Under the pieces are notes generated by a model. The model was not told where the DNA came from. It was given only the letters and a program-made list of their open reading frames with translations, and did not search any database. The translations under genes and the position numbers were made by a program. A stretch of DNA of 34,158 bases from an uncultured Bacteroidales bacterium (GTDB lineage Bacteria > Bacteroidota > Bacteroidia > Bacteroidales > Bacteroidaceae): contig CACZAN010000043.1 of the NCBI GenBank assembly GCA_902779165.1, positions 1 through 34,158 of the forward strand, in the 5' to 3' direction. Positions 12,501 through 33,602 of the stretch are shown in pieces. Numbering within the stretch: position 1 is the stretch's first letter; each line of letters begins with the position of its first letter.

Positions 12501-12505
12501 CACCG

Positions 12506-12573
12506 TGTTTTTCATGGTATTAGATTTAAGGTTAATGAAAGGTAGGTTGTCGTGAGACAACCTGCTTTTTTTT
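12506..12573 (+). ncRNA. Predicted small non-coding RNA of about 68 nt
   Basis: A consensus promoter ends at 12500, so transcription should start near 12506. The transcript ends in an intrinsic terminator: AGGTTGTC (12544-12551), loop GTGA, GACAACCT (12556-12563), then eight T (12566-12573). The 5' half (TTTTTCATGGTATTAG, then ATTTAAGGTTAATG) is predicted to be mostly single-stranded and would suit base-pairing with mRNAs. It resembles short sRNAs reported in Bacteroides, but I cannot assign a named family. It points toward the 3' end of gldE and could also be antisense to its mRNA tail if read-through occurs. Confidence 0.65.
12544..12573 (+). terminator. Intrinsic terminator of the small RNA
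   Basis: An 8-bp GC-containing stem with a tetraloop GTGA is followed by CTGC and a run of eight T. It lies 24 nt before the convergent gldE stop; the opposite strand has no U-run on its side, so it mainly acts on the plus strand. Confidence 0.85.
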
Positions 12574-12596
12574 ATGCTCAGATGCCTCCTGGCAAT

Positions 12597-16312: not shown

Positions 16313-17923
16313 ATGAGCAGAAAACGCAAAGAACTACCCCTCCTCTCCGCCGTCGAAATCACCGATGTGGCTGCTGAGGGGAAGGCACTCGTGAGAATCG
16401 ATGACCTCGTGGTATTCGTACCGTTTGTGATACCGGGAGACATCGTAGACCTACAGCTGACAAAGAAAAAACATAGCTATGCCGAGGCAGAGGCCGTAAG
16501 AATCCTACAGCCCTCCAAGGACCGACTCGAACCTTTCTGTCCCCATTTCGGGGTTTGCGGGGGATGTAAGTGGCAGATGTTGCCCTACGAGCTCCAGCTA
16601 CAGGCCAAGCAGAAACAGGTGATGGATGCACTCACACGCATTGGCAAGGTGGAACTGCCGCCCTGCAGCCCCATACTCGGGTCAAAGAAGATACAGGAAT
16701 ATCGCAACAAACTGGAATTCGGATTCTGCAACCGACGCTGGCTGACGAAGGAACAGATACGCAGTGGCGAGCAGTTCGAGCATCAGGAGAGCGTGGGATT
16801 CCATACAACGGGATCCTTCGATAAGATACTGCCCATCGAGGAATGCCACCTCATGGAACCCGTCAACGACCGCATCAGACTGTTCATACGGGATTATGCC
16901 TACGACCGCGGCCTCACATTCTACGACCAGCGCGAGCACACAGGACTCCTGCGCGGCATGATGATACGTACCTCCAATATGGGAGGACTGATGCTCCTCA
17001 TCCAGTTCTGCATGATGACCGAGGAAGAACACCGACAGGCACAAGACCTCCTCAAGGCCGTTGCCGACAACTTCCCTGAAATCACCTCCCTCCTCTATGT
17101 CGACAACCAGAAATGGAACGACACCTTCGGTGACCTCCCCGTCAACGTATTCCGCGGCGAAGACCACATCTTCCTCCAAATGGAGGACCTCCGCTTCAAG
17201 GTCGGACCCAAATCCTTCTACCAAACAAACACCGACCAAGCCCTCGAACTCTACAACGTCGCCCGCACCTTCGCCCTCTCCCCCTCCTTCGGTAGTGTGC
17301 CCGGCGGTTTCGCCGCCGGTTCCCCCACCTCCCCCTCCGCTTCCCCCTCCTTCTGTAGTGTGCCCGGCGGTTCCCCCGCCGGTTCCCCCACCTCCCCCTC
17401 CGCTTCCCCCTCCTTCGGTAGTGTGCCCGGCGGTTCCCCCGCCGGTTCCCCCTCCGGTCCTGTTTCCGCCGGTTCCCCCTTCCCCCTCATCTATGACCTC
17501 TACACCGGCACCGGCACCATCGCCAACTTCGTCGCCCGCCAGGCCCGTGAGGTGATAGGTATTGAATACGTCCCCGAGGCCATCGAGGACGCAAAGGTCA
17601 ACAGCCGCATCAATGGCATCACCAACACCAAGTTCTTCGCGGGGGACATGAAGGATATCCTCACTGAGGACTTCATCGCTCAGCACGGCCGCCCGGATAT
17701 CATCATCACCGATCCCCCGCGCGCAGGCATGCACGCTGATGTCATCAATGTCATCCTGAAAGCTGCCCCCAGCCGCATCGTCTACGTCAGCTGCAACCCC
17801 GCAACACAAGCACGTGACCTTGCGCTGCTCGATGCAGACTACAAGGTCACGCGTATTCAACCTGTCGATATGTTCCCGCATACGCAGCACGTGGAAAACG
17901 TGGTGCTGCTCGAGCGGCGCTGA
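16313..17923 (+). CDS. rlmD: RlmD-type 23S rRNA uracil-C5 methyltransferase with a repeat-coded insert
   Basis: A 536-residue RlmD/RumA-family enzyme (m5U in rRNA, SAM-dependent). It has an N-terminal TRAM domain, an Fe-S cluster motif with Cys76, Cys82 and Cys85 (CPHFGVCGGC) plus a later Cys in PIEECH, SAM motif DLYTGTGTIANFV, motif TDPPRAGMH and the catalytic Cys in SCNPATQARDL. Bacteroidota paralogues make RlmD versus RlmC/TrmA assignment uncertain. About 68 extra residues (DNA 17279-17484, residues 323-391) lie between NVARTFA and LIYDLYTG. They are three 63-bp copies of a palindromic GC-rich element read as SVPGGSPAGSPTSPSAS. The insertion point is the connection before the SAM-binding core. 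All catalytic motifs are intact, so the enzyme is probably active. Confidence 0.88.
   Translation: MSRKRKELPLLSAVEITDVAAEGKALVRIDDLVVFVPFVIPGDIVDLQLTKKKHSYAEAEAVRILQPSKDRLEPFCPHFGVCGGCKWQMLPYELQLQAKQKQVMDALTRIGKVELPPCSPILGSKKIQEYRNKLEFGFCNRRWLTKEQIRSGEQFEHQESVGFHTTGSFDKILPIEECHLMEPVNDRIRLFIRDYAYDRGLTFYDQREHTGLLRGMMIRTSNMGGLMLLIQFCMMTEEEHRQAQDLLKAVADNFPEITSLLYVDNQKWNDTFGDLPVNVFRGEDHIFLQMEDLRFKVGPKSFYQTNTDQALELYNVARTFALSPSFGSVPGGFAAGSPTSPSASPSFCSVPGGSPAGSPTSPSASPSFGSVPGGSPAGSPSGPVSAGSPFPLIYDLYTGTGTIANFVARQAREVIGIEYVPEAIEDAKVNSRINGITNTKFFAGDMKDILTEDFIAQHGRPDIIITDPPRAGMHADVINVILKAAPSRIVYVSCNPATQARDLALLDADYKVTRIQPVDMFPHTQHVENVVLLERR
17285..17484 (+). repeat. In-frame A-type palindromic repeats in rlmD, three 63-bp units plus a remnant
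   Basis: Units start near 17291, 17354 and 17417 with an exact 63-bp period (21 codons). Each holds a CCGGCGG...CCGCCGG hairpin (17301-17319, 17364-17382, 17427-17445; the latter two have one changed base beside the loop). A truncated copy (TTTCCGCCGGTTCCCCC) follows near 17464-17480. The coding strand is strongly pyrimidine-rich. Confidence 0.88.
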
Positions 17924-17964
17924 ACATGGGGGCTTCCTCGCCCTTTCTGCTCTATACCAACCTC

Positions 17965-19899
17965 CTACGAGTTCATGGAGATGAGGAACTCCTCGTTGGT
18001 CTTCGTATCTTCCAGTCGTTTCTTCAGTTCCGTCATGGCTTCCAGAGGAGTCATGTCTGAGAGGAACTTACGCAGGATCCACATGCGGTCCAGCGTGGTC
18101 TTGTCATGCAGCAGATCGTCGCGACGGGTGCTGCTGGCGATGATATTCACAGCAGGGAAGATGCGTTTGTTCGAGAGCATACGGTCCAGCTGAAGCTCCA
18201 TATTTCCCGTACCCTTGAACTCCTCGAAGATGACTTCATCCATCTTACTGCCGGTATCGATGAGGGCTGTAGCAATGATGGTCAGCGAGCCGCCACCTTC
18301 GATATTACGGGCTGCACCGAAGAAACGCTTGGGCTTGTGCAGCGCCTGGGCATCCACACCACCGGAGAGAATCTTGCCGCTGGCAGGAGCCACGGTATTG
18401 TACGCACGGGCCAGACGGGTGATGCTGTCGAGGAAGATGACCACATCATGACCGCATTCCACCATGCGCTTTGCCTTCTCCAGCACGATGCCGGCAATCT
18501 TCACGTGGCGCTCTGCAGGCTCGTCAAAGGTCGAGGCAATGACCTCCGCATTGACGGTGCGGGCCATATCCGTGACCTCCTCCGGACGCTCGTCGATGAG
18601 CAGCATCATCAGGTAGGCCTCGGGGTGGTTGGCGGCAATGGCATTGGCGATATCTTTCATCAGCAGGGTCTTACCGGTCTTGGGCTGGGCCACGATGAGG
18701 GCACGCTGACCCTTACCGATAGGGGCGAAGAGGTCCACGACACGTACGCTGGTGGAGTCGCTGTAGCCGCGGCAGAGTTGGAACTTCTCATCGGGGAATA
18801 GCGGGGTGAGGTGCTCAAAGGACTGACGGTCACGGATCCGGGCGGGATCCACACCATTCACACTGTCGATACTGATCAAGGGGAAGTATTTCTCGCCCTC
18901 ACGGGGAGGACGAACGCTGCCTTCCACCACATCACCGGTCTTCAGACCGAACTGCTTGATCTGCTGCTGGCTGACATACACGTCATCAGGGCTGGCAAGG
19001 TAGTTGTAGTCCGAGCTGCGCAGGAAACCGAAACCATCGGGAGTGGTCTCCAGCACACCCTCACACTTCACCAGATCACCGAAGTCATAACGGGCTTCGG
19101 GCTGTGACTGAACAGCGGGAGAGGGTAGGGCAGTGTGTTCACCATTGGCATCGCGGATACTGGAGAGATCCTGGATGAAAGAGGGAGGGGCTGCTACGGC
19201 CATAGGCTCGTAACCAGTCTCATAATCAGGAATCTCTGGCACAGACTGCAGGATGACGAAATCGGGCTCGTTGGCGTTGAAGAAGGCTTCCACCTCCTCC
19301 GGAGAGGGCATACCGTTAACCTGCGGATAGCCTACCTCAGAGGGAGTGTCGGCATAAGGCATGTCGGCCATCTCGGGCTGTTCCACCTCGGCAGAAACCT
19401 CCTCCGGCGCAACGTCTTCCTCACTGAAGAGCGTGGGCTGTTCTGCAGCGGCGGCAGCAGCCTCGGCTTCCTTCTCGGCCTTGGTCTTACGACCCCGTTT
19501 CTTGGGCTTCTCAGCGGCAACAGGGGCCTCAGATGTTTCTTCAGCAACTGTGGGCACTTCGGCAATGGGCTCCTCGGCTGGCTTACTGTCTTCAGCAGCA
19601 GCTTCGGGGGCCTCGGCAGGCACTTCCTTAGCCTTTTTGCTCGTGCGCTTGCTCTGCTTGGAGTTCTCTGTTGCGGACTGACTCTCTGCGGCTTCGGCTT
19701 CCTTCTCGGCCTTGGACTTACGACCGCGCTTCTTGGGCTTCTCTGCCGGTACAACAGCCGGCTGCTCACTCTCGGCACCGATGATGCCGTAGATGAGATC
19801 TATCTTTTCTGTACTTGACGATACGGGGATGTTCAATGATTTAGCGAGAACGACCAACTGTTCGTCCGTCAGATTCTCGAGTTCACTTTTAGTGTGCAT
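17965..19899 (-). CDS. rho: Transcription termination factor Rho with large disordered insertion
   Basis: A 644-residue Rho hexamer subunit, longer than the ~420 residues of E. coli Rho. A Rho-N SAP-like domain (about 1-40) is followed by a low-complexity Ala/Glu/Lys/Pro region (about 45-270), the RNA-binding cold-shock-like domain (about 278-345, [10 protein letters not shown]) and the ATPase with Walker A AQPKTGKT, Walker [17 protein letters not shown] and the Q/R-loop region. The disordered part contains a near-perfect duplication of [19 protein letters not shown] (residues 53-71 and 130-148). In Bacteroides thetaiotaomicron the comparable insertion is reported to drive Rho phase separation; the same may hold here. 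The promoter lies about 130 nt upstream, leaving a long leader that could serve autoregulation. It is convergent with rlmD. Confidence 0.95.
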
Positions 19900-20032
19900 A
19901 GAGTTTTTCGATATGTATTAAAAGGTAACGAAGATACCTTCATGAATATGATTCTTGTGAGAAATGAATTTCGTGGCTTTAACAACACACGGAAAAGCGC
20001 CAAAATAGGGTCTTCCGTCATAAATTCGCGTG

Positions 20033-20063
20033 CAAAGGTACGGTTTTTTCACCATTCTGCAAA
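20033..20063 (-). promoter_or_regulatory. rho promoter with a long 5' leader
   Basis: On the minus strand TTTG (20063-20060), 19 nt, TACCTTTG (20040-20033). Transcription should start near 20026, about 127 nt before the ATG. A weaker TACCTTTT at 19927-19920 could be a second start. Confidence 0.65.
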
Positions 20064-20082
20064 TTTTCTCGCACTTTTTCTT

Positions 20083-20090
20083 TACTTTTG
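20083..20090 (+). promoter_or_regulatory. -7 box of the ABC-F gene
   Basis: TACTTTTG followed by CACC, 18 nt before the ATG at 20109. The -33 element is not clear. It is divergent from, and partly overlapped by, the rho promoter. Confidence 0.55.
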
Positions 20091-20108
20091 CACCGAAAAA
20101 AGTGAATT

Positions 20109-22598
20109 ATGGCAGCAGTGAACCCCTATTTGCAAGTCGAAGGACTGCGTTTTGCCGTCGGCGACAAGGAACTTTTCCACGATATCAGCTTCGGAATTGC
20201 CGAAGGTCAGCGTATAGGACTCATCGCCCGCAATGGGGTGGGGAAGACCTCGCTCCTCAACATCATCGCGGGCAAGGAAGAACCCGAGGCGGGAACCGTG
20301 GTGTTCCGCCGAGACCTGCGCGTGGCATACCTCGAACAGGCACCTTCCTTCCCAAAGGAGATGACGGTCATGGAAGCCTGTCTGTGGCATTGTAGCGAGG
20401 AACCCAGACGCATCAAGGAATACCTCACCAAGCTCCATATCACCGACCACGACCAGCCCATAAGCCACCTATCAGGAGGGCAACTCAAGCGCGTGGCACT
20501 GGCCAATGTCCTCTGTCAGGAGCCAGACCTCCTCATCCTCGATGAACCCACCAACCACCTCGACCTCAAGATGATAGAATGGTTGGAGAACTACCTCTCA
20601 CGCTCACGGATAACGCTGCTCATGGTCACCCACGACCGCTACTTCCTCGACCGGGTGTGTTCGGTTATCCTGGAACTCGAGGACCAGAAGCTATACACCT
20701 ATCGCGGCAACTACGCCTATTACCTCGAGAAACGACAGGAACGCATCAATGTCACCAATGCCGAACTCGCGCGCGCGAGTAATTTATATAGGAGGGAACT
20801 GGAATGGATGCGCAGCACCCCACAGGCACGCAGCCACAAGGCCCGCTACCGCGAGGAAGCCTTCGAAGACCTTGAACGAAAAGTACGACAGCACCCCACG
20901 GAACAGAACGTATCCCTACAACTTAACAGCGCCTATATCGGTTCCAAGATATTCGAGGCAGAATACGTCTCCAAGACCTTCCCACCACGCGAGGATGACC
21001 CCAGTTCCACGGAGCGAGTGATTCTGAAAGATTTTTACTATAACTTCTCCCGCTATGAGAAGATGGGCATCGTCGGAGCCAACGGCACCGGCAAGTCCAC
21101 CTTCATCAAAATGCTCCTCGGTATCGTAAAACCAGATAGCGGCCGTTTCGTCATCGGCGACACCGTCCGCTTCGGCTACTTCTCCCAAGAAGACCTCCTC
21201 CTTCCCCCCTCTTCCCCCGCCCCCTCCCCCTCCTTCCCCTCTGGCTCCGCCCCCTCCGCTTTCCCCTCCTCCGGCCCTGTTTCCGGCGGTTTGTCCGCCG
21301 GTTCCCCCGTCCCCTCTTCGTCCAGTATGTTGCCATTTATGGCAACTTCTCCCTCCTCCGCCTCCCCCGCTCCCTCCCCTGTCTCCCCCTCTGGCTCCGC
21401 CCCCTCCGCCTCCCCCTCCGCTTCCCCCTCCTCCGGCCCTGTGCCCGGCGGTTCCGCCGCCGGTTCCCCCTCCCCCTCTTCGTCCAGTGCGTTGCCATTT
21501 ATGGCAACTTCTCCCTCCTCTGCCTCCTCCGGTTCCCCCTCCGCTTCCCCCTCCTCTGGCCCTGTGCCCGGCGGTTCCGCCGCCGGTTCTCCCGCCTTCC
21601 CCTCTTCGTCCAGTGCGTTGCCATTCATGGCAGTTCCTTCCTCCCCCGCCTCCCCCGCTCCCTCCCCTGTCTCCCCCTCTGGCTCCGCCCCCTCCGCTTC
21701 CCCCTCCTCCGGCCCTGTGCCCGGCGGTTCCGCCGCCGGTTCTCCCGCCCCCTCTTCGTCCATTATGTTGCCATTCTATGGCAACCCCTCCCCTTCTGGT
21801 CCCGTTTCCTCCACTTTCCCCTCCATCCCCTCCATCTCCCCCCGTGCCCGCGTCATCGACGCCGTGCGCAGCATCGCGGAATATGTGGATCTCGGCGGCG
21901 GCCGCCAGCTCTCCGCTATGCAGTTCCTCCAGCATTTCCTCTTCACACCCCTCCAGCAGCAGAACTACATCTACAAGCTCTCCGGCGGCGAGCGCAGGCG
22001 CCTCCAGCTCTGCATGGTCCTCATGCAGAACCCCAACTTCCTCATCCTCGATGAGCCCACCAACGACCTCGATATCGCCACCCTCAACATCCTTGAGGAC
22101 TACCTCGCTACCTTCCGTGGCTGCGTCATCGTCATCAGCCACGACCGATATTTTATGGACAAAGTCGTCGACCACCTCCTCGTCTTCCACGGCGATGGCA
22201 ACATCCAGGACTTCCCCGGCAACTACTCTCAATTCCGCGAATACCAGCGCGCCTCCTCCCCCTCCTCCTCCCGCCCCCTTAAGCCCCTCAAACCCCTTAA
22301 ACCCTCACCCCCCTCAACCCCGTCCTCCTCCCCCGCAGGTCCCGTGCCCGGCGGTTCCGCCGCCGGTTCTCCCTCCCCCCACCGCCGCCTCACCTACAAG
22401 GAAAAGCGCGAAATGGAAGCCCTCGAAGCCGAAATCGCTGCCCTCGAAGCCGAAATCGCTGCCCTCGAGACCGCCCTCTGCAGCGGCACCCTCTCCGTCG
22501 CAGAGCTCACCGAGAAAAGCCGCCGCCTCCCCCGCCTCGCCGAAGAACTGTCCGACAAAGAAATGCGCTGGCTCGAACTCTCAGAAATAGAAGGTTAA
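20109..22598 (+). CDS. ABC-F family ATPase (Uup-like) with two repeat-coded insertions
   Basis: An 829-residue soluble ABC-F protein with two nucleotide-binding domains: Walker A ARNGVGKTS, signature LSGGQLKR and Walker B LLILDEPTNHLD; then GANGTGKST, LSGGERRR and FLILDEPTNDLD. ABC-F proteins act on ribosomes or on branched DNA (Uup); relatives of this kind are usually about 620-650 residues. The surplus is about 214 Ser/Pro/Gly/Ala residues (DNA 21197-21840) between RFGYFSQEDLLL and RVIDAVRSIAEY inside the second ATPase domain, and about 43 residues (22252-22380) before the C-terminal coiled coil. Both are made of A and B palindromic elements. The C-terminus also has tandem ALEAEIA units (24-bp repeats). 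Every catalytic motif is intact, so the insert must be tolerated. Confidence 0.88.
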   Translation: MAAVNPYLQVEGLRFAVGDKELFHDISFGIAEGQRIGLIARNGVGKTSLLNIIAGKEEPEAGTVVFRRDLRVAYLEQAPSFPKEMTVMEACLWHCSEEPRRIKEYLTKLHITDHDQPISHLSGGQLKRVALANVLCQEPDLLILDEPTNHLDLKMIEWLENYLSRSRITLLMVTHDRYFLDRVCSVILELEDQKLYTYRGNYAYYLEKRQERINVTNAELARASNLYRRELEWMRSTPQARSHKARYREEAFEDLERKVRQHPTEQNVSLQLNSAYIGSKIFEAEYVSKTFPPREDDPSSTERVILKDFYYNFSRYEKMGIVGANGTGKSTFIKMLLGIVKPDSGRFVIGDTVRFGYFSQEDLLLPPSSPAPSPSFPSGSAPSAFPSSGPVSGGLSAGSPVPSSSSMLPFMATSPSSASPAPSPVSPSGSAPSASPSASPSSGPVPGGSAAGSPSPSSSSALPFMATSPSSASSGSPSASPSSGPVPGGSAAGSPAFPSSSSALPFMAVPSSPASPAPSPVSPSGSAPSASPSSGPVPGGSAAGSPAPSSSIMLPFYGNPSPSGPVSSTFPSIPSISPRARVIDAVRSIAEYVDLGGGRQLSAMQFLQHFLFTPLQQQNYIYKLSGGERRRLQLCMVLMQNPNFLILDEPTNDLDIATLNILEDYLATFRGCVIVISHDRYFMDKVVDHLLVFHGDGNIQDFPGNYSQFREYQRASSPSSSRPLKPLKPLKPSPPSTPSSSPAGPVPGGSAAGSPSPHRRLTYKEKREMEALEAEIAALEAEIAALETALCSGTLSVAELTEKSRRLPRLAEELSDKEMRWLELSEIEG
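21197..21840 (+). repeat. In-frame A/B palindromic repeat array inside the ABC-F gene
   Basis: A hairpins (CCGGCGG/CCGCCGG) lie at 21283-21301, 21445-21463, 21568-21586 and 21721-21739. B palindromes (GTTGCCAT/ATGGCAAC) lie at 21329-21346, 21491-21508, 21617-21634 (right arm diverged) and 21767-21785. A and B alternate, joined by CT-rich filler ending in CTTCGTCCA before each B. In frame A reads as [12 protein letters not shown] and B as SSSALPFMAT. Two plus frames and two minus frames remain open across most of the array. Confidence 0.9.
22252..22380 (+). repeat. Second in-frame repeat insertion near the ABC-F C-terminus
   Basis: CT-rich filler with a short AAGCCCCTCAAACCCCTTAA reiteration (KPLKPLKP) leads into one A hairpin at 22348-22366. 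It encodes [12 protein letters not shown] in the linker between the second ATPase domain and the C-terminal coiled coil. Confidence 0.85.
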
Positions 22599-23134
22599 CC
22601 TCTCCTCCTCTCTCCGCCCCTGTGTCCTCCTCTCTCCGCCCCTGTGTCCTCCTCTCTCCGCCGCCGTCCCGTCCATTATGTTGCCATTTGATGGCAACCC
22701 CTAAACCCTTAACAGAGGTATTCTCCCCCCTTCCTGGGTTCTGTGCACGGCGGTTTCCCCGCCGTTTCTCCCTTGAATAATTTTGAATTGTGCGCTTGAC
22801 CTTGCTCGCTTGACCCTTCAAGAATTATCAATTATCAATTCTCAATTATCAATTATCAATTACTCAAGTTTCGCTAGTATGCTAACCAGCTGTAATACAA
22901 AGCCCCAGCGGGGCGTGACAATGGTAGCCAGCCGTTTCCGCTCGGCGCTCTGCGACGCTTCACGCTTGAAGAACGCCCTGTCGCGTACCTACGGCACGCT
23001 ATCCGTTAACATCCTCATTACCAGCCATTGAAACGGCTGGCCGCTCGACCTTGGTCGCTTCATACCTGAAGAACCATTGTCAGATGCCTATGGCATCACT
23101 TCCGAAACTTGAATCAATTATCAATTATCAATTA
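22599..23134. other. Repeat-filled spacer between the ABC-F and trmH genes
   Basis: No gene is supported. It holds a 22-bp CT-rich tandem repeat (about 22608-22668, unit CTCTCCGCCCCTGTGTCCTC), one B palindrome (22680-22698), a decayed A copy near 22742-22770, an AATTATCAATT tract (22822-22862), a REP-like segment with inverted ends (22928-22938/23030-23040), two GACCTTGGTCG-type motifs (about 22795 and 23046), and another AATTATC tract (23111-23147) that reaches into trmH. The neighbouring genes are convergent. Confidence 0.75.
22880..23045. repeat. REP-like segment with 11-bp inverted ends
   Basis: CCAGCCGTTTC (22928-22938) pairs with GAAACGGCTGG (23030-23040). The interior has a CCCCAGCGGGGC hairpin (about 22902-22913) and Tyr/Ala-poor, stop-containing sequence with no gene. 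The layout resembles extragenic palindromic units of Bacteroidota. Confidence 0.5.
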
Positions 23135-23941
23135 TCAATTCTCAATTCCCCTCCTCTGTCTCACCGCCTCGTACACCAATATCGCCGACGACACACTAAC
23201 ATTCAGTGAGTCCAGCCGCCCCAGCATCGGTATCCGAATGTGCGCCGTCGCCGCACGCCGCCACTGCTCCGTAAGCCCCGTCGACTCCGTGCCCATGACG
23301 ATCGCCGTACCCACCCGCATGTCCACATCATAATACGGATGCGAGTCCTGCAGCTGCGCCGTGAGAATCTGGATGCCACGCTCCTGCAAAAAGGCAATAC
23401 ACTCTTCCGACGTACACGCCACCGTGGGCACCGTGAAACGAGCCCCGATGGAGCTGCGGATGAGGTTCGGGTTATACAAATCTGTGAGGGGGTCACACAC
23501 CACCACAGCATCCGCCCCAGCCGCATCCGCCGAACGCAGAATGGCACCTAAATTCCCAGGCTTCTCCACACTTTCCAACACCACGATGAGTGGCGCTTCT
23601 CTCATTTGTAAGTCATTGAGATCCAGGGGCCTCTCCTTTACAACCGCCACCACACCCTCCGTGCTCCCGCGATACGCAATATGCTCATATAGGGTGGGGG
23701 AGAGCTCATAGGCCGTTGCCGCCTTAGCCTCACTCAGCAACCGCTCTCCCGCAGCCCCCAACAAACTGCTGCACACATACCATTCCACCACCTCGTACCC
23801 CGCCGCTATACAATGTCCGAGTTCGCGTTGCCCCTCCACCACGAAGAGACCGCTACGACGACGTTCCGAAGACTTCTGTTGCAGCGCCAGCAGCGCTTTG
23901 ATGCGCGGGTTTTGTTTGCTGGAGATCAAAAGAGGTTCCAT
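23135..23941 (-). CDS. TrmH/SpoU-family RNA 2'-O-methyltransferase
   Basis: A 268-residue SPOUT methyltransferase. An N-terminal substrate-binding region (SSKQNPRIKALLALQQKSSERRRSGLFVVEG) is followed by the knotted SPOUT core with VLESVEKPGNLGAILRSADAAGADAV, IVMGTESTGLTEQW and IPMLGRLDSLNVSVSSAILVYE. Family members methylate ribose 2'-OH in rRNA or tRNA; the target cannot be told. The C-terminal GIEN and the TGA stop are formed by the AATTGAGAATTGA repeat tract, which suggests that the repeat replaced the original end. A -7 box TAAATTTG lies at 23995-23988. Confidence 0.88.
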   Translation of the reverse strand: MEPLLISSKQNPRIKALLALQQKSSERRRSGLFVVEGQRELGHCIAAGYEVVEWYVCSSLLGAAGERLLSEAKAATAYELSPTLYEHIAYRGSTEGVVAVVKERPLDLNDLQMREAPLIVVLESVEKPGNLGAILRSADAAGADAVVVCDPLTDLYNPNLIRSSIGARFTVPTVACTSEECIAFLQERGIQILTAQLQDSHPYYDVDMRVGTAIVMGTESTGLTEQWRRAATAHIRIPMLGRLDSLNVSVSSAILVYEAVRQRRGIEN

Positions 23942-23987
23942 AGTGTTCCTTTTTTTTGTATTTTGTAGTTTCTTGTAATGTTTACTG

Positions 23988-23995
23988 CAAATTTA
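23988..23995 (-). promoter_or_regulatory. -7 box of the trmH-family gene
   Basis: TAAATTTG followed by CAGT on the minus strand, 46 nt before the ATG at 23941. No clear -33 element is seen. Confidence 0.45.
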
Positions 23996-24101
23996 CATAT
24001 AATCCACCGATTTATCCTCTTTGTTAGGGGAATTTATGACCTTTTTTATTGATTTTAAGATTTCTTAACGGCTCGCATCGTTTTATCGTAATAATATTTC
24101 G

Positions 24102-24109
24102 TACCTTTG
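24102..24109 (+). promoter_or_regulatory. Promoter of the upxY-like locus
   Basis: TACCTTTG followed by CACCGC gives a predicted start near 24115. That leaves a leader of about 205 nt before the ATG at 24322. A plain TTTTA lies near 24081 where the -33 element is expected. Confidence 0.6.
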
Positions 24110-24114
24110 CACCG

Positions 24115-24321
24115 CATTTAGTGAACACTTTATCGGGACCCCTATTTCGAGGGCTCGAGAATGCAATAAAAATAGGTCCAGAAGTCCACTGACAGAGGGC
24201 GACAATGCATCATCCTCAGGCGTCATACAAATTTCGGAGACCGTAAGAAGGCTGAAAGTCTTTCACTTTCAGTAGTTTAGTCCAAGCGATATCAATCTGC
24301 AAGGACAAGGCCTTGTCGTAA
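24115..24321 (+). promoter_or_regulatory. Structured 5' leader of the upxY-like gene
   Basis: The leader contains three foldable parts: GGACC...CCTATTT (24136-24147) with AAATAGG-TCC (24170-24179), CTGAAAG/CTTTCAG (24252-24258/24266-24272), and a perfect 14-bp palindrome GACAAGGCCTTGTC (24304-24317) ending 4 nt before the start codon. In Bacteroides, UpxY proteins act on the untranslated leader of their own capsule operons; this leader could be the recognition site or an attenuator. No inverted repeats typical of invertible capsule promoters were found next to it. Confidence 0.55.
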
Positions 24322-25911
24322 ATGAACACAACGAGCACCACCCTTTCAGCACCCACCACGGTTCCTGCTGAGGCACACCTTCCCCAGTGGCATGTCATGA
24401 CACATCTGGAGATGGCACGCTTTCAGAAATGGTTCTCCAATGTCAACGCCATGCGCTTGCGCGACGGACTGCCCGTTATCCAGACCTTCTATCCCTACGA
24501 TTTTCTTAGAGGCCGAATACGTGACACACGCGAAACCTCCGATGCTGAGCAGCAGAAGACCACCGTCAAGGCAGATGCCCACGTGGAGTTCCGCCGCTTC
24601 GTCTTCCTTAAGGCCACCGACAAAGACATCCGAGACCTCGTCTACTCCAAGGAAAACCTCGACTCCTTCATTCGCCTCCGCCGATACCTCGACCCCACCG
24701 GTCATCAGGCTCTCGTACGCGATGCCGTCATGCGGGAGTTCTTCCAGGCTTGCCTTGACTACCGCGAGCGCTTCGAGCTCAGCCCCTCCCTCGAGGGCGT
24801 CAAAGCCCTCGACAAAGTAAAGATCATCAGCGGACCCTACAAAGGCTATGAGGCCACCGTCGTCAGCATCAAGCTCGTCAACGGCAAACTCGACCTCCGC
24901 CTCGCCATCCCCATGGTCCACGGGCAGATCGACATCCACCGCAAGAATGTCAGTGCCAAGGAGGTAGTCCCCCTCAACCCCTCCGATGCCAGCGCCCTCC
25001 GCGCCGACTTCATCCGCTACACCCAGGACTCCCTCCTCGACATCCTCACCGCCCGCGCCGCCGCCCTCGAAAAAGCCGAGCGCGCCCACCGCCGTCCCTC
25101 CTCCTCTTCTCCTGTCCCCCCCTCTGGCTCCGCCCCCCTTAGTAGTGTGTCCGGCGGTTCCCCCGCCGGCTCCCCCGCCTCCTCCGCTTCCTCCGCCTTC
25201 TCCGCTTCCCCCTCAGGTCCCTCCCCCTCTGGCTCCTCCCCCCTTAGTAGTGTGTCCGGCGGTTTGTCCGCCGGTTCCCCCGCCTCCCCCTCCGGCTCCT
25301 CCCCCCTTAATGGCCCTGTGTCCGGCGGTTTCGCCGCCGGTTCCCCCGCCTCCCCCTCCGGCTCCTCCCCCCTTAATGGCCCTGTGCCCGGCGGTTCCGC
25401 CGCCGGTTCCCCCGCCTCCCCCTCCGGCTCCTCCCCCTCCAGCCCTGTTTCCGCCGGTTCCCCCGCCTCCCCCTCCGGCTCCTTCCCCCTTAATGGCCCT
25501 GTGTCCGGCGGTTCCGCCGCCGGTTTCCCCCCCTCCTCCGACCTCTCCCTCTATCGCCGCCACGCCGAGCTGCTCACCACTCTCTACCGCTACCGCGACT
25601 ACGAGATTCAGAACCCCTCCGCCGAGGCCCATTTCACTGCCCTCATGCTTATCTGCGCCCACCTCTGTCAGGACGCCAAGGGCGAGAAAGAACTCCAGCA
25701 GCGTGCCCTCGCCCAACTCGAGGCCATCAACGCCAAAGGACCCGCCAAAGCCGCCACCGACACACGCACCTACCTCTGGATAGCCCTGAAGATCTCCACC
25801 GGAGACCCCCAATACCGCGACCTGGCCAAGGACTACATCCGCACTAAGCAACCCAAGTCCCCCCAACTCCGCCAGTTCGTCACCCTCATCTCCAAAAAAG
25901 TCCGCCTCTAA
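24322..25911 (+). CDS. Long UpxY/NusG-like transcription antiterminator with repeat-coded insert
   Basis: A 529-residue NusG-related protein. Residues 21-140 fit an NGN domain of the UpxY/RfaH kind (PQWHVMTHLEMARFQKWFSN...FVFLKATDKDIRDLV), and residues 163-215 a KOW domain (DKVKIISGPYKGYEATVVSIK). Ordinary UpxY proteins are about 170-190 residues. Residues about 259-405 (25096-25535) are Ser/Pro/Gly/Ala-rich and built of A elements. A helical C-terminal domain (about 406-529, SLYRRHAELLTTLYRYRDYEIQNP...) of unknown function follows. UpxY proteins bind paused RNA polymerase to allow transcription of long polysaccharide operons. The neighbouring ugd gene and a dead wecB fragment support a surface-polysaccharide setting, though most of such an operon is missing here. 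Confidence 0.75.
   Translation: MNTTSTTLSAPTTVPAEAHLPQWHVMTHLEMARFQKWFSNVNAMRLRDGLPVIQTFYPYDFLRGRIRDTRETSDAEQQKTTVKADAHVEFRRFVFLKATDKDIRDLVYSKENLDSFIRLRRYLDPTGHQALVRDAVMREFFQACLDYRERFELSPSLEGVKALDKVKIISGPYKGYEATVVSIKLVNGKLDLRLAIPMVHGQIDIHRKNVSAKEVVPLNPSDASALRADFIRYTQDSLLDILTARAAALEKAERAHRRPSSSSPVPPSGSAPLSSVSGGSPAGSPASSASSAFSASPSGPSPSGSSPLSSVSGGLSAGSPASPSGSSPLNGPVSGGFAAGSPASPSGSSPLNGPVPGGSAAGSPASPSGSSPSSPVSAGSPASPSGSFPLNGPVSGGSAAGFPPSSDLSLYRRHAELLTTLYRYRDYEIQNPSAEAHFTALMLICAHLCQDAKGEKELQQRALAQLEAINAKGPAKAATDTRTYLWIALKISTGDPQYRDLAKDYIRTKQPKSPQLRQFVTLISKKVRL
25096..25535 (+). repeat. In-frame A-type repeat array inside the upxY-like gene
   Basis: Full A hairpins lie at 25151-25169, 25256-25274, 25322-25340, 25388-25406 and 25505-25523. 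A half copy lacking the left arm is at 25451-25457. Spacing of central units is 66 bp. No B palindrome occurs in this array. It encodes SVSGGLSAGSP and [12 protein letters not shown] blocks joined by SPSGSSPLN. Confidence 0.9.
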
Positions 25912-26269
25912 TCTCCCCCCTTCGGCCCTGTTTCCGGCGGTCTGTCCGCCGGCTCCCCCGCCTCCTCCGCTTCCCCGGCTCCCTCCCCGGCTCCCCTCTG
26001 GCTCCGTTCCCCCCTCCTCCTCCCCGCTTCCCTCTCTCCGGCCCTGTTTCCGGCGGTTTGTCCGCTGATCTCCCCTCCCTCCCTTTTCGTCCAGTATGTT
26101 GCCATTTTATGGCAACCCCTCCTCCCCTCTGGCTCCGTTCCCCCTCCTCCTCCCCACTTCCCCCTCTCCGGCCCTGTGCCCGGCGGTTCCGCCGCCGGTC
26201 CCTCCCCCCTCCTCCGCTTCCCCCTTTTCAATCTTTCCATTTTCCATTTTCAATTCTCAATCTTCAATT
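25912..26269. repeat. Intergenic A/B repeats between upxY-like and ugd
   Basis: No gene. A copies lie at 25934-25952, 26050-26068 (right arm decayed) and 26180-26198, and one B palindrome at 26098-26116. All have the same orientation as the genic copies. The last 40 nt before the ugd ATG are an AT-rich TTTCCATTTTCAATTCTCAA tract. The open frame running from 26096 into ugd is a repeat artefact. Confidence 0.85.
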
Positions 26270-28807: not shown

Positions 28808-29581
28808 TTGATAGATCAATATAATCATAAGATTGTGAATTATCATTGGCTTTTAAAAAAATGCACCTTCGCATTTTTCGCTATATCCATTAGCATTATT
28901 GTATGGACGTTGATGAACAGAAAATCAAATTTGCATGGGATGATGACTAATAAAGTGGATTCTAACGACAATAAACAACCTAGTTGTGAGATGAAAGATG
29001 TAATGCCTAATTCTATTGATCAACTTAGTGCAAGACTAGATCGTGTAAATAAGTGGATTGAGAATTGTGATCAAAAGGTTTATATTATGCTGGCTTTTAT
29101 CGGAGCTTGCATAACAGTTGTCTTTTCATCTTGTATGTTCTTTAAGGCACGTACTGTTCTGATACATCCTTTTTACGCCTTTCTAAAACATAACGATGCA
29201 TATTGCGTAGATTGTCGGAAATTACTTCTTTTTATTGGTTTGATAATAATAAGTATCTTTGTGGGGCGAATGATATATTTTTTGATAAAGGCATTAACTC
29301 CGAAGACGATAACAAATGATTTTTTGAAAAAGAATCCTAGCCTGGAGGGCAAATCCCTACTTCATTTTCAAACAATAGCGGGAATGCCGTTTGATGAATT
29401 TGAGTCACAAGCAGACAATGATACAAAAGAACGATATAAGCATGACCTTTATTCTCAGATATATATCAATTCAAGCATTTGTGATGCAAAGTTTGAGAAC
29501 TTGAAGAAGGGTTTGCAAGCAATGAATTGTTTGTTTGTCTTTATTCCATTGGAGGCAGCATTGGCTTTCTTTCTTCCATAG
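28808..29581 (+). CDS. Predicted Pycsar transmembrane effector (PycTM-like)
   Basis: A 257-residue membrane protein. Hydrophobic segments lie at about residues 18-36, 90-112, 138-160 and 239-256. The stretch from residue 73 (LSARLDRVNKWIENCDQKVYIMLAFIGACITVVF) through FDEFESQADNDTKERYKHDLYSQIYINSSICDAKFENLKKG resembles the Pycsar effector family PF18967 (formerly DUF5706), where a membrane protein senses cyclic UMP or CMP and permeabilises the membrane of infected cells. The match is from memory of the family pattern. The extra N-terminal segment (18-36) is not required by that family. The start is uncertain: the frame offers TTG at 28808 and no ATG until 28913, which would remove the first membrane segment. 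Two cyclase genes follow at 4 and 8 nt, forming one operon. Confidence 0.7.
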   Translation: MIDQYNHKIVNYHWLLKKCTFAFFAISISIIVWTLMNRKSNLHGMMTNKVDSNDNKQPSCEMKDVMPNSIDQLSARLDRVNKWIENCDQKVYIMLAFIGACITVVFSSCMFFKARTVLIHPFYAFLKHNDAYCVDCRKLLLFIGLIIISIFVGRMIYFLIKALTPKTITNDFLKKNPSLEGKSLLHFQTIAGMPFDEFESQADNDTKERYKHDLYSQIYINSSICDAKFENLKKGLQAMNCLFVFIPLEAALAFFLP

Positions 29582-29585
29582 CACT

Positions 29586-30530
29586 ATGAGTAAGAAATCA
29601 TTCTTTGAGACTATTGACAAGGTGATAGAGGATTGGCGAACTACGTCATTTACATTCTATCAAAAAGATTATGTACCCGGGTTAGATTCCGATAATAACC
29701 TTACTTATGGCGACGGGGAGAATAAAAAGGGTGTTGAACTATATACCTGTGTGCTCTTTGTGGATATTCGCAACTCTGTAGCACTTACAAAGGAGCATCA
29801 GATTCGCACTATGGCTAAGATTTACTCTGTTTTTACACATTGTGTACTTCTTGCAGCTCAAGAGGAGGGTGGTTTTGTACGCAATATAATAGGAGATAGG
29901 GTAATGGTTGTCTTTCCTCCTGATGGGTGTTATACTAAAGCTGTTGATTGTGCAATGACAATATATCAGGCGGCACTGCATATCAATGATAAGTTTTCAA
30001 ATATTGAATTTAAGTGCGGAATAGGTATTGAATATGGTAAAATAAATGTGATGAAAGTTGGTATAAAGAAGAAAGGTGAAGAAAACGATGATAATAAGGG
30101 ACTTGTATGGATTGGATATCCTGCAAACTTTGCATCTCGTCTTTGCGATAATGCCAACAAAACAATAATAGATGAGTATTACCATGTAGAGGGTGAAGGG
30201 TTAACTTTTTCCCTTCTTGGAGGTCCGACAATTCAACCACCTGAAAAGAAAGTCAAGGAGTATTCAAAAGAAGATTTGTTGAATGCCATCCATCTATATG
30301 ATGGTGCTTTACGTTTAAGTTCTTTTGCTAGAATAAATTCATTTGAGGCTAAGAGTGGTTCCTTTAAGTTCGAACCAATTTTGATGTCTAAACAGGTTTA
30401 CGACGGATTTGCAAAAGATAATCCTAATAGGAAAAGTGTTAAAAAAGGATATTGGGCAGTGCAAAATCACCCAATAAGAGATATTGACTTTGTTATATAT
30501 GGCGGTCACGTTACGTGGGATTTAACTTAG
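29586..30530 (+). CDS. Class III nucleotide cyclase, predicted Pycsar cyclase 1
   Basis: A 314-residue soluble protein with a class III cyclase domain at about residues 50-190. Metal-binding Asp60 lies in LFVDIRNS and Asp104 in IIGDRVMVVF. The transition-state Asn181 and Arg185 lie in GYPANFASRL. At the position that selects adenine in class III cyclases (seven before the Asn) there is Val174, not Asp. In Pycsar systems such cyclases make cCMP or cUMP upon phage infection; that specificity is inferred, mainly from the adjacent effector. The ATG at 29586 is chosen over the in-frame TTG at 29535, which would overlap the effector gene. The C-terminal ~120 residues are of unknown fold. Confidence 0.75.
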   Translation: MSKKSFFETIDKVIEDWRTTSFTFYQKDYVPGLDSDNNLTYGDGENKKGVELYTCVLFVDIRNSVALTKEHQIRTMAKIYSVFTHCVLLAAQEEGGFVRNIIGDRVMVVFPPDGCYTKAVDCAMTIYQAALHINDKFSNIEFKCGIGIEYGKINVMKVGIKKKGEENDDNKGLVWIGYPANFASRLCDNANKTIIDEYYHVEGEGLTFSLLGGPTIQPPEKKVKEYSKEDLLNAIHLYDGALRLSSFARINSFEAKSGSFKFEPILMSKQVYDGFAKDNPNRKSVKKGYWAVQNHPIRDIDFVIYGGHVTWDLT

Positions 30531-30538
30531 ATTCTTAT

Positions 30539-31309
30539 ATGGAAGCAACTAATAAGGCATATAATTTTGCAGATTCATTGAGTAGGATAGACGATATCCT
30601 TAATGCGGACAATAAGCAGTTTGAAGAGAGGGAGTCCATCCCTGCCCGCAGTAGCCTAACCCATACAAATGGGTTCTACGTGAATTGCACAGCATTGTTT
30701 GTGGATATCTGTGATAGTAGCAAGCTACCTCAATATCAGAACCGTCCAGTATTAGCCAAGATATATAGAAGTTTCATATCTGAACTTGTGGCATTATTTA
30801 ATGGTGCAAACAATTGCAAGGAGGTGAATATTAATGGCGATTGTGTATGGGCGGTATTTGATACAACCACAAAGTCAGACGTTGATGGCGTTTTCGACTG
30901 TGCCGCAGCCGCCAACTCTCTTGTTAAGATATTGGACTATAAGCTTGAAAAGAAAGGTTACAAGACCTATAAGGTAGGTATCGGTATTGACTACGGTCGT
31001 GCGTTGATGATTAAGGCAGGCCACAAAGGTTCTACTATTAATGATGTTGTATGGATGGGAGATGTGGTGAACCAAGCAAGCCATTTGGCAGCAAAAGGGA
31101 ATGATGCATACTCCAGTGGCAATCCGATAATGCTATCTGATGTAATATATGATAATTTGAATGAAAAGTATCAAGACTTTTGTAGCCGCAATTCTAACAA
31201 TCTTTGCTATCAGTCAGACGCTATCAATATTGAGATGAATAACTGGCTTAAAGAACAGAAAGAAAAAGACCAGAAGAGATTGGGTGATAACGGGTTCTCT
31301 GGATGGTAG
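30539..31309 (+). CDS. Second class III nucleotide cyclase, predicted partner with altered active site
   Basis: A 256-residue protein with a class III cyclase domain at about residues 45-185. Asp56 (LFVDICDS) and Asp101 (INGDCVWAVF) keep both metal ligands, and Asn178 is kept in GDVVNQASHL, but the Arg four residues later is His182. Class III cyclases work as dimers with composite sites, so this subunit could pair with cyclase 1 and give one competent site, or it could be a sensor. The two cyclases differ widely outside the motifs, so this is not a recent duplication. A GTG at 30515 would overlap cyclase 1 by 16 nt; the ATG at 30539 is preferred. Confidence 0.72.
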   Translation: MEATNKAYNFADSLSRIDDILNADNKQFEERESIPARSSLTHTNGFYVNCTALFVDICDSSKLPQYQNRPVLAKIYRSFISELVALFNGANNCKEVNINGDCVWAVFDTTTKSDVDGVFDCAAAANSLVKILDYKLEKKGYKTYKVGIGIDYGRALMIKAGHKGSTINDVVWMGDVVNQASHLAAKGNDAYSSGNPIMLSDVIYDNLNEKYQDFCSRNSNNLCYQSDAINIEMNNWLKEQKEKDQKRLGDNGFSGW

Positions 31310-32576: not shown

Positions 32577-32783
32577 GTTAGCTCTCCATTGAATCACTAG
32601 GCCAATCAAGGCTGTCCACCTTTGCGCTATGCGTCTTCCGCTTCGGCACCTTACTCTGTTGCGGAACCTTGCTTAAGCCGAGCACTGCACCCCTCTTGAA
32701 CGTCAACAACAATCAGTTGTTCCCGTCAAGAGGCCCTCAGGCTCCAGGTCGCCATAGTCCCAGAGAGCGTCAAAACAAGGGTG
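32577..32783 (-). pseudogene. Amidase-tail remnant fused to an unrelated C-terminal fragment
   Basis: Positions 32733-32780 are identical over 48 nt to 33058-33105 in the intact amidase gene (CFDALWDYGDLEPEGLL). The remnant then reads TGTTDCC-stop. In another minus frame, 32577-32699 reads FKRGAVLGLSKVPQQSKVPKRK and finishes as LDWPSDSMES-stop, nearly the amidase's own LDWPSDSMEN end. This is a scrambled duplication of the amidase 3' end with about 120 bp of another gene inserted; that piece might be an HU-like tail, which is a weak guess. Confidence 0.65.
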
Positions 32784-33002
32784 GCATCAAAGAGAGTAAC
32801 TGAGTGTTACTATCAAAGATGACTTCTCAGAGCTCAGAGGGTGCAAAATAGATTTATTCTAATTGCGGCAACCGACGTTTAGCTCGTGAGGTGCCATCAA
32901 AGGTGGCAACTGAGTGTTGCCAGCAAAGATGGTTTCTCAGCAATCAACAGATGCAAGGCATGCTTGTCATAGCCGAAGCAGAAGTTGGCAATTGCGTGAG
33001 GG
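32784..33002. repeat. Two tandem copies of the amidase upstream element
   Basis: Copies at about 32784-32890 and 32891-33002 match the sequence around the amidase start (33505-33602). On the minus strand each reads roughly PHALNVGCFGYDKHALHPL then SAEKPSLMTALS, with stops in the 32784-32890 copy. The most similar part is TTGTCATAGCCGAAGCA and ATCAAAGATGGTTTCTCAG. Confidence 0.75.
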
Positions 33003-33021
33003 CAGTCGGGAGGCTTTATGA

Positions 33022-33522
33022 TCAGTTTTCCATCGAATCACTTGGCCAATCCAGGAGCCCCTCAGGCTCCAGGTCGCCATAGTCCCAGAGAGCGTCAAAA
33101 CAAGGGCAAAACTTCAGCCATTCCTCTGGCTCCACGTGTCCATCCCCATCCAGATCCGGCGACAGGTCACGGTGTCCCATGATAATGGTTGACGGAAACT
33201 GATCATGAAGCCTGGTTAGCAGCGCCCGCATGGATTCACGCTGCGCCTTGGTTCGCGTGTCGCAGGCATTGCCGAGGGCATCGAGCCCACCTTCGTAGCA
33301 GATGCCGATGGAGTGTTTGTTGTGGCCCTTGCAGTGAGCACCCTCCTGCCACAGTGGCCGGCCCTCATGCACCTGGCCGTCGCGCGTGATATAGTAATGG
33401 TACCCGATGTCCTTCCACCCTCTCTTGAGGTGGTCTTCTTTGCACCGACGGAACGTGTAGCTCTGTGTCGTCCGCGTGCCGCTGCAATGCAGCACTATCA
33501 ATGTTATTCTGAGTGCTGTCAT
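33022..33522 (-). CDS. N-acetylmuramoyl-L-alanine amidase (Amidase_2/PGRP-like)
   Basis: A 166-residue amidase of the phage-lysozyme-like family frequent beside smalltalk and HU-like genes in Bacteroidales. LIVLHCSGTR carries the first Zn ligand His, WKDIGYHYYITRDGQVHEGRP the substrate region, KHSIGICYEGG the core strand, and IIMGHRDLSPDLDGDGHVEPEEW the second His plus a calcium-like loop. It should cleave the MurNAc-L-Ala bond in peptidoglycan. The ATG at 33522 (MTALRITLIVLHC) is preferred; an open frame extends 11 codons upstream through the dispersed element at 33505-33602, which appears to have supplied the start codon. No signal peptide is visible, as is usual for this family. Confidence 0.85.
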   Translation of the reverse strand: MTALRITLIVLHCSGTRTTQSYTFRRCKEDHLKRGWKDIGYHYYITRDGQVHEGRPLWQEGAHCKGHNKHSIGICYEGGLDALGNACDTRTKAQRESMRALLTRLHDQFPSTIIMGHRDLSPDLDGDGHVEPEEWLKFCPCFDALWDYGDLEPEGLLDWPSDSMEN

Positions 33523-33602
33523 CAAAGATGGTTTCTCAGCGCTCAGAGGGTGCAAGGCATGCTTGTCATAGCCGAAGCAACCGACGTTAAGCGCGTGAGG
33601 GA
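33505..33602. repeat. Third copy of the amidase upstream element
   Basis: Covers the amidase start. It shares ATCAAAGATGGTTTCTCAGC, CTCAGAGGGTGCAAGGCATG and CTTGTCATAGCCGAAGCA with the copies at 32784-33002. Confidence 0.78.

Follow-up and report, generated by a model that had tools for sequence, protein, structure and literature searches.

The window analysed here is a stretch of 34,158 nucleotides of contig CACZAN010000043.1 from an uncultured Bacteroidales bacterium, and it carries many copies of a short, GC-rich palindrome, referred to as hairpin A, both between genes and in frame inside genes. Analysis of the window and of related genomes suggests that hairpin A belongs to a non-autonomous family of palindromic repeats similar to the Rickettsia palindromic elements (RPEs), present between and inside genes, filtered by selection and grown by tandem duplication. 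We put the probability of this reading at roughly 0.7. The insertions are present in some species, with none at the orthologous place in others. An earlier note, made from the sequence of the window alone, had proposed a dispersed palindromic repeat family in Bacteroidota lying in frame inside functional genes, and the absence of the inserts from orthologues bears this out. Its choice of the RPEs as a parallel is also apt.

A search with CCGGCGGTTCCGCCGCCGG allowing up to 3 mismatches finds 15 matches in the window, each of them on the plus strand; 100 shuffles gave on average 0.03 (maximum 1). With a looser core, 17 places of hairpin A are found, again all on the plus strand. A companion palindrome, hairpin B (TGTTGCCATTNNATGGCAAC), alternates with hairpin A both in the ABC-F gene and between genes. 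The host genes and the copies are as follows.

16313-17923, plus strand: gene for an rlmD-like 23S rRNA (uracil-5-)-methyltransferase with a 70-residue linker (Pfam tRNA_U5-meth_tr, TRAM).
17301-17319, 17364-17382 and 17427-17445, plus strand: three copies of hairpin A in rlmD, with 63-nt spacing (looser core at 17303, 17366 and 17429).
About 17456-17475, plus strand: half copy of hairpin A in rlmD.
20109-22598, plus strand: ABC-F ATPase gene (Pfam ABC_tran, ABC_tran_Xtn, ABC_tran_CTD).
Residues about 361-574 of the ABC-F product: linker 1, with four copies of hairpin A and four of hairpin B.
21283-21301, 21445-21463, 21568-21586 and 21721-21739, plus strand: hairpin A in ABC-F linker 1 (looser core at 21285, 21447, 21570 and 21723).
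21328-21346, about 21491-21508, about 21617-21635 (degenerate) and 21767-21785, plus strand: hairpin B in ABC-F linker 1.
Residues about 719-756 of the ABC-F product: linker 2, with one copy of hairpin A.
22348-22366, plus strand: hairpin A in ABC-F linker 2 (looser core at 22350).
22680-22698, plus strand: intergenic hairpin B.
22747-22765, plus strand: intergenic hairpin A variant ACGGCGG..CCGCCGT (looser core at 22749), missed in the earlier count.
24322-25911, plus strand: upxY-like gene with five copies of hairpin A and a half copy (Pfam KOW; the name upxY is that of the earlier note).
25151-25169, 25256-25274, 25322-25340, 25388-25406 and 25505-25523, plus strand: hairpin A in the upxY-like gene (looser core at 25153, 25258, 25324, 25390 and 25507).
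About 25440-25460, plus strand: half copy of hairpin A in the upxY-like gene.
25934-25952, 26050-26068 and 26180-26198, plus strand: hairpin A in an intergenic array (looser core at 25936, 26052 and 26182).
26098-26116, plus strand: hairpin B in the intergenic array.

The copy numbers given previously for the three genes (3, 5, and 5 plus a half copy) stand, and the intergenic copies are four, not three. All 13 coding copies of hairpin A share one codon phase, and all ten spacings between neighbouring copies within genes are multiples of 3; among the short intergenic spacings (116 and 130 in the window; 103, 105 and 106 at locus L031 of the same genome) one of five is. The three coding inserts consist of 77-80% pyrimidines. 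The genome of the window contains 20 exact copies of CCGGCGGTTNNNCCGCCGG, 14 of them on the window contig, and longer composite units are present in it as well. Hairpin B was considered as a general unit and rejected, its exact pattern being found only in the window genome among 61 genomes. An Rfam search of the window gave no RNA family match at the hairpins.

Comparison with orthologues shows how much the three genes differ from those of relatives. The rlmD linker, which precedes the methyltransferase motif, is 70 residues long in the window, 6-7 residues in 15 of 29 relatives from the genus and 9-53 in the other 14; the best relative in the PDB has 6 residues where the query has 322-391. 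ABC-F linker 1 has 220 residues versus 9 in all 29 relatives fetched, and the EttA structure 7msc has 3 residues where the query has 361-574. In the upxY-like protein, about 128-156 extra residues are estimated from alignment gaps against the genomes G019, G029 and G079; of 60 other genomes, 7 gave a match to the gene, and wherever their copies were aligned over the site the insert is missing. These alignments, which the earlier note had proposed, find the rlmD, ABC-F linker 1 and upxY-like inserts absent or shorter in relatives; the inserts are not old linkers. The gains claimed for these three sites hold, in contrast to a further gain of 43 residues claimed for ABC-F linker 2, which has 54 residues in the window versus 34-62 in 23 relatives (6 more being unreadable by the pattern used); the sequence there has been rewritten without lengthening.

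The positions invariant in the alignments (26 of 30 sequences aligned for each protein) are retained in the window RlmD and ABC-F; the retained positions presumably include the recognised nucleotide-binding and methyltransferase motifs. In both proteins, the two examined in this respect, insertion leaves the protein core intact, as it does with RPEs. AlphaFold models predict the inserts to be disordered. In the RlmD model, the predicted local confidence (pLDDT) is below 50 at residues 327-386 and mostly above 70 in the remainder. In the ABC-F model it is below 50 at 363-569 and 719-756, as well as at 1-3 and 262-270, and the surrounding domains are well predicted, with a low overall predicted template modelling score of 0.38.

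The consensus of the element is GGCASTGTKYCCGGCGGTTYNNCCGCCGG, a palindrome of about 30 nt. Consensus, covariation and the wider frame set given below are based on the window, loci L031-L098 and the Bacteroidales loci of L099-L178 and L249-L256. A TGTK tag is present on 95 of 128 non-redundant looser-core copies and is followed by a variable base and then CC; no terminal inverted repeats other than the hairpin were seen. Pairing between stem bases -3 and +2 is seen in 50 of the 68 coding copies that are in frame (one copy per open reading frame (ORF), non-identical); in 2000 shuffles the mean was 23.0 and the highest value 36. The same pairing is found in 27 of the other 39 copies (shuffle mean 11.8, maximum 21). 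Base +2 is the third, silent position of a Gly codon, and the pairing therefore points to conservation at the level of DNA or RNA rather than of protein.

A scan of TGTNNCCGGCGGTTYNYCCGCCGG against one genome per species (84,980 species) returned 90 stretches, 64 with Bacteroidales-type titles and 26 from Actinobacteria, Clostridia and others, the latter being excluded from the frame counts. At least six of these 26, which read GGGTAGH on the opposite strand, taken here to be a MurG motif, are apparently chance matches in a single coding motif. There are 68 strict copies in the 64 Bacteroidales loci. Of these, 48 are in sense frame 0, the frame that encodes V-S/P-G-G-x-x-A-G, within an ORF no shorter than 250 codons. 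Among the 62 copies of the first 60 loci, 42 are inside in this frame and 1 is at an ORF edge in it, 5 are in one of the other sense frames (3 of these at edges), 2 are antisense, 3 are ambiguous and 9 have no ORF of that length; all six copies of the last four loci are inside in sense frame 0, loci L179-L188 being counted only in this last tally. In the wider set of 95 tagged copies, 65 are in sense frame 0 and 11 in other sense frames; 8 are antisense, and the remaining 11 have no ORF of 220 codons. One copy, in a decarboxylase gene (L086), is read in frame 1 within the C-terminal domain match. As the earlier note stated, hairpin A always follows the orientation of the plus-strand genes in the window. 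This does not extend to contig C27 of the same genome (L031), where plus-strand copies at 9486, 9589, 13392, 14389, 14494 and 14600 lie between long ORFs on the minus strand; orientation is therefore not a rule of insertion.

The genes affected are many more than the three functional genes first noticed. A Pfam scan of 36 chosen element-bearing ORFs, one of which (L117) had no match, identifies as hosts RlmD, ABC-F, IleRS (G019), YidC (window genome), alpha-2-macroglobulin and CbiD/J. The element lies between two exonuclease matches in DNA polymerase I (G015), between the HAD and IGPD matches in HisB, and between domain matches in a RadA from a bin named as Prevotella. Further hosts are shikimate dehydrogenase (AroE), an FGGY kinase, CstA and a U32 peptidase in G018, a radical SAM protein with TRAM and DPP IV in the window genome, and an AIR-synthase-like protein and the glycoside hydrolases (GH) GH43, GH92, GH97 and GH35. 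In IleRS, the element is present in G019 and L106 and absent from the 29 other loci aligned (L130 being the G019 gene again). Orthologue pairs with the hairpin absent at one side are also found for GH92 (L093 versus L133) and GH43 (L048 versus L099), while an insertion place is shared by the species pairs L060/L175 (GH43), L117/L150 and L140/L155. Near-identical insert-bearing proteins occur in separate assemblies (L104/L162, 97%; L157/L174, 99%). The output of this comparison omitted the window queries, matches below 35% identity and rows identical across the insert.

The element is found mainly in one uncultured, mostly rumen-dwelling genus of Bacteroidales, and rarely elsewhere in its family. 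Of the 64 Bacteroidales titles, 31 name the rumen, reticulum or abomasum and 5 more the red deer; most others are RUG isolates, which we assume to be rumen-derived as well. The search of relatives proposed in the earlier note finds the strict pattern in 16 of 139 genomes of the window genus, with 16 copies in the window genome (G000), 14 in G018, 8 in G067 and 1-4 in the remainder. A sample of 399 genomes from the family gave 6 matches, 5 among 34 genomes of the window genus and 1 among 365 of other genera. In a sample of 393 genomes from the order the window genome was the only match; 5 of the other 392 belong to the same family, and the 387 genomes of other families gave none. One match to the looser core was found in another family (G053). 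Restriction to a single genus was considered and dropped, as G543 (genus g220, 4 genomes sampled) has 3 copies. A viral contig (IMGVR_UViG_3300026549_000055, L326, 101,861 bases) carries one frame-0 copy in an ORF of 1380 codons, and no further stretch of this viral collection matched.

The linkers that hold hairpin A are occupied by other repeats in sister species. In the rlmD linker, G010 has a CCCCTCCC/GGGAGGGG hairpin and G066 two C/G-rich hairpins; G019 has TCTCCCCTTACGGGGAGA there, G079 has CACAATTCACAATGCAC heptads and G002 repeats PVPDDAG in tandem. ABC-F linker 2 of G018 carries PTPSPSREGGE, derived from the CCCCTCCC type, and similar-looking segments are present in several other relatives. 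A single GH43 linker holds VSGGLPAG in G015 and VSGGFPAG in L175; in G018 it is filled by a long inverted repeat, GACCCACCCCCAGCCCCTCCC...GGGAGGGGTTGGGGATGGGTC; a single GH92 linker holds VPGGFPAG in L133 and L171 and, in G018, a GTTGACGAGTTGAC array with its own reverse complement. Such filling of the rlmD, ABC-F linker 2, GH43 and GH92 linkers by different repeats implies that it is the permissive linker, not one element, that recurs. The idea that protein loops serve as landing sites is accordingly modified, in that these linkers are not used by the hairpin family alone. In G018, HisB and one GH43 each contain two repeat types at different sites.

Two of these other repeats are shown to be dispersed. 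The fetched loci hold 24 copies of the CCCCTCCC type, of which 20 lie within ORFs, in mixed frames, and 4 do not, and the GTTGAC repeat has 7 matches across three loci. The TCTCCCC hairpin was seen only once, and the heptads have counterparts elsewhere only in similar CAATT repeats, 10 of 12 of them outside ORFs. A repeat in L056 with GACCCAYCCC..GGGAGGGG arms is more like a miniature inverted-repeat transposable element (MITE) than hairpin A is. In the minus-strand GH92 ORF of L093 (G018), a GTTGACGAGTTGACAAGTAAACAA array ends in its own reverse complement, with in-frame KQVDELTS repeats. The window also contains palindromes of a second type, in a minus-strand ORF that from its sequence we take to be a GH2 beta-galactosidase.

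4734-4752 and 4851-4869, minus strand: two in-frame second-type palindromes (CCCTCCCTNNNAGGGAGGG; CCCTCCCT/AGGGAGGG) with 8-bp stems, within ORF 2942-5515.

For the RPE-like family we propose that a copy would enter a gene by chance, and that selection would retain those insertions in tolerant linkers that encode a short, flexible loop of Gly, Ser and Ala. Through slippage and duplication in tandem, the linker might afterwards grow along with the C/T-rich sequence around the element, the gain in ABC-F reaching about 211 residues. For the copying itself, a general repeat- or hairpin-driven process such as template switching during replication has a little less than an even chance in our estimate, and a dedicated enzyme acting in trans is somewhat doubtful. 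The general process is favoured because the same linkers hold other, partly non-palindromic repeats. Some observations weigh against the proposal. The covariation may in part reflect a few founder subfamilies (TCC..GGA, CCC..GGG, GCC..GGC), and some matches to the looser core are no more than ordinary coding sequence (GGYAAGYYSY in L041, L047 and L049, presumably a conserved peptidase motif). The reverse-strand frame, GG-x-T-A-G, would be about as harmless as the sense frame and is yet nearly absent, so that simple selection on the peptide does not fully explain the sense bias; the ORF calls are mechanical. The insertion places shared by several species pairs indicate that not all copies are separate gains. 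One window copy folds only modestly better than its shuffles (z -1.56). No copying enzyme was found, and neither a target-site duplication nor sharp element ends were seen, the orthologue pairs being too diverged to fix the borders. The self-propagation inferred in the earlier note is not shown; no dedicated enzyme was found and the Y1/RAYT family does not track the element.

The same linker occupancy admits a broader, rather tentative explanation, in which a general process unspecific for sequence grafts abundant genomic repeats into the same few linkers of housekeeping enzymes, with viruses sharing the pool. The repeats concerned, each seen at more than one place, would be the GGCGGTT hairpins, the GACCCAYCCC/GGGAGGGG palindromes and the GTTGAC tandem palindromes, and perhaps also the TCTCCCC/GGGGAGA hairpins and CACAATTCACAAT heptads, both seen only in the rlmD linker. 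If so, intergenic DNA continually rewrites linkers, which become a testing ground for new protein segments. An alternative is that hairpin A resembles a repetitive extragenic palindrome (REP) in its mobility as well, an IS200/IS605-type (Y1, RAYT) transposase moving it in trans after recognising the hairpin in single-stranded form together with the tag at its 5' end; we consider this unlikely. The size, hairpin and conserved 5' tag TGTK of the element do resemble REPs, REPs within genes are known (PMC3733652), and the window genome has one full Y1_Tnp gene (C5:81182-81523). However, the tag differs from GTAG or CGTC, the Y1 locus of the window genome (L262) has other hairpins (CCAGCCG..CGGCTGG) and no hairpin A, and among the element carriers covered by the Y1 search (G000, G010, G015, G018 and G019) no match was found in G018 with its 14 strict copies, in G015 or in G019, genomes that are 73-85% complete. 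Full Y1_Tnp genes are present, conversely, in G013 and G022, which have no strict copies. The L262 locus itself, where the IS200-type Y1 gene stands with paired hairpins AAGCCCC..GGGGCTT and CCAGCC..GGCTGG, is possibly a separate REPtron.

Recurrence might also be convergence, the hairpin being kept for a function in mRNA or protein, such as a translation pause at domain boundaries or a selected flexible linker. Folding energies of -15.4 to -18.0 kcal/mol for three window copies, the strong sense orientation and the position between domain matches in PolA, HisB and RadA would fit such a role; we nevertheless regard it as improbable, for 123 of the 139 genomes of the genus, and most of the orthologues read, do not have the strict pattern, intergenic copies oppose their flanking ORFs, and different sequences fill the same linker in other species. 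A further reading, in which VSGGxPAG is an old linker motif passed on or shared as protein and similar in DNA through codon usage, could account for the insertion places common to some species pairs. It is very hard to reconcile with the silent-site covariation, the use of frame 1 in a real gene (the L086 decarboxylase), the intergenic copies, the unrelated host proteins and the absence from orthologues, and we give it very little credence. Still less probable is an assembly artefact of one metagenome bin. The window genome, 86% complete in 75 contigs, contains tandem GC-rich repeats that are hard to assemble, and the exact tandem copy numbers in the window could be wrong; yet goat, sheep, yak, deer and buffalo assemblies carry the family in other genes, the near-identical insert-bearing proteins come from separate assemblies, and the coding spacings preserve the frame.

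Other features of the window lie apart from the hairpins. A Pycsar-like defence locus at 28808-31309 comprises a PycTM-type effector (28808-29581) followed by PycC-type cyclases at 29535-30530 and 30515-31309; two different cyclases in one such locus seem unusual. Rfam identifies the FopS paralogous small RNA of Bacteroidetes (RF04319) at 12505-12574, with 81 bits against a cut-off of 56. Duplicated pieces surround an amidase-like ORF at 32711-33601, with direct repeats of 93 nt (81% identity) and 71 nt (87%). An inverted repeat of 40 nt at 887-1035, 98% complementary and with arms 69 nt apart, is followed at 1168-1332 by 22-nt tandem units.

With 139 genomes in the genus, and linkers readable with and without inserts in dozens of relatives, the gain, frame choice, tandem growth and replacement of such inserts would become traceable step by step. 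The family indicates sites in IleRS, Pol I, RlmD and ABC-F at which evolution itself has tried out insertions, and makes it testable whether intergenic repeats regularly supply new protein sequence. For annotators, Ser/Pro/Gly blocks in such bins are not necessarily artefacts.

Palindromes that code for protein are on record for Rickettsia, Wolbachia, one archaeon and a few other organisms; among the open-access papers that our searches listed, none describes such elements in Bacteroidota. PMC10969869, PMC3767692 and PMC2996958 describe RPEs and the Wolbachia palindromic elements (WPEs) as dispersed palindromic repeats that occur in intergenic DNA as well as in numerous unrelated genes, where they sit in frame at tolerant places and do not destroy the reading frame. 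PMC3767692 leaves open whether RPEs and WPEs use hotspots, and the 2024 review of MITEs (PMC10969869) judges a similar process in other prokaryotes conceivable. REPs inside genes are reported for several species in PMC3733652. Like the REP/RAYT systems (REPtrons), hairpin A is a palindrome of 20-40 nt with a conserved tag at one end; unlike them, it has the tag TGTK instead of GTAG/CGTC, lies mostly in frame within ORFs (48 of 68 copies) and not extragenically, and does not match the transposase in distribution (none in G018, G015 and G019; a full gene in G000 beside other hairpins). MITEs, like those ERIC/RU elements that have coding potential, are non-autonomous palindromic repeats which can become joined to genes in frame (PMC10969869; see also PMC2759123). 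As regards MITEs, the only inverted repeat seen in hairpin A is the hairpin itself, and no target duplication was seen, the orthologue pairs being too diverged for the borders to be fixed. The palindromic amphipathic repeat coding elements (PARCELs), palindromic DNA encoding repeated protein segments according to PMC2996958, form tandem 25-residue amphipathic repeats in membrane proteins, whereas the hairpin family forms short disordered Gly/Ser/Pro loops in housekeeping enzymes. RPEs are 100-150 bp long and belong to Rickettsia and Wolbachia; the hairpin core, of about 30 nt and GC-rich, belongs to a Bacteroidales family, and other repeats occupy the same linkers. Because length and lineage differ, and the likeness concerns mode of action, we do not call the hairpin family RPE. 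In that mode of action the two agree: like the RPEs, this is a hairpin family found both between genes and in frame inside ORFs.

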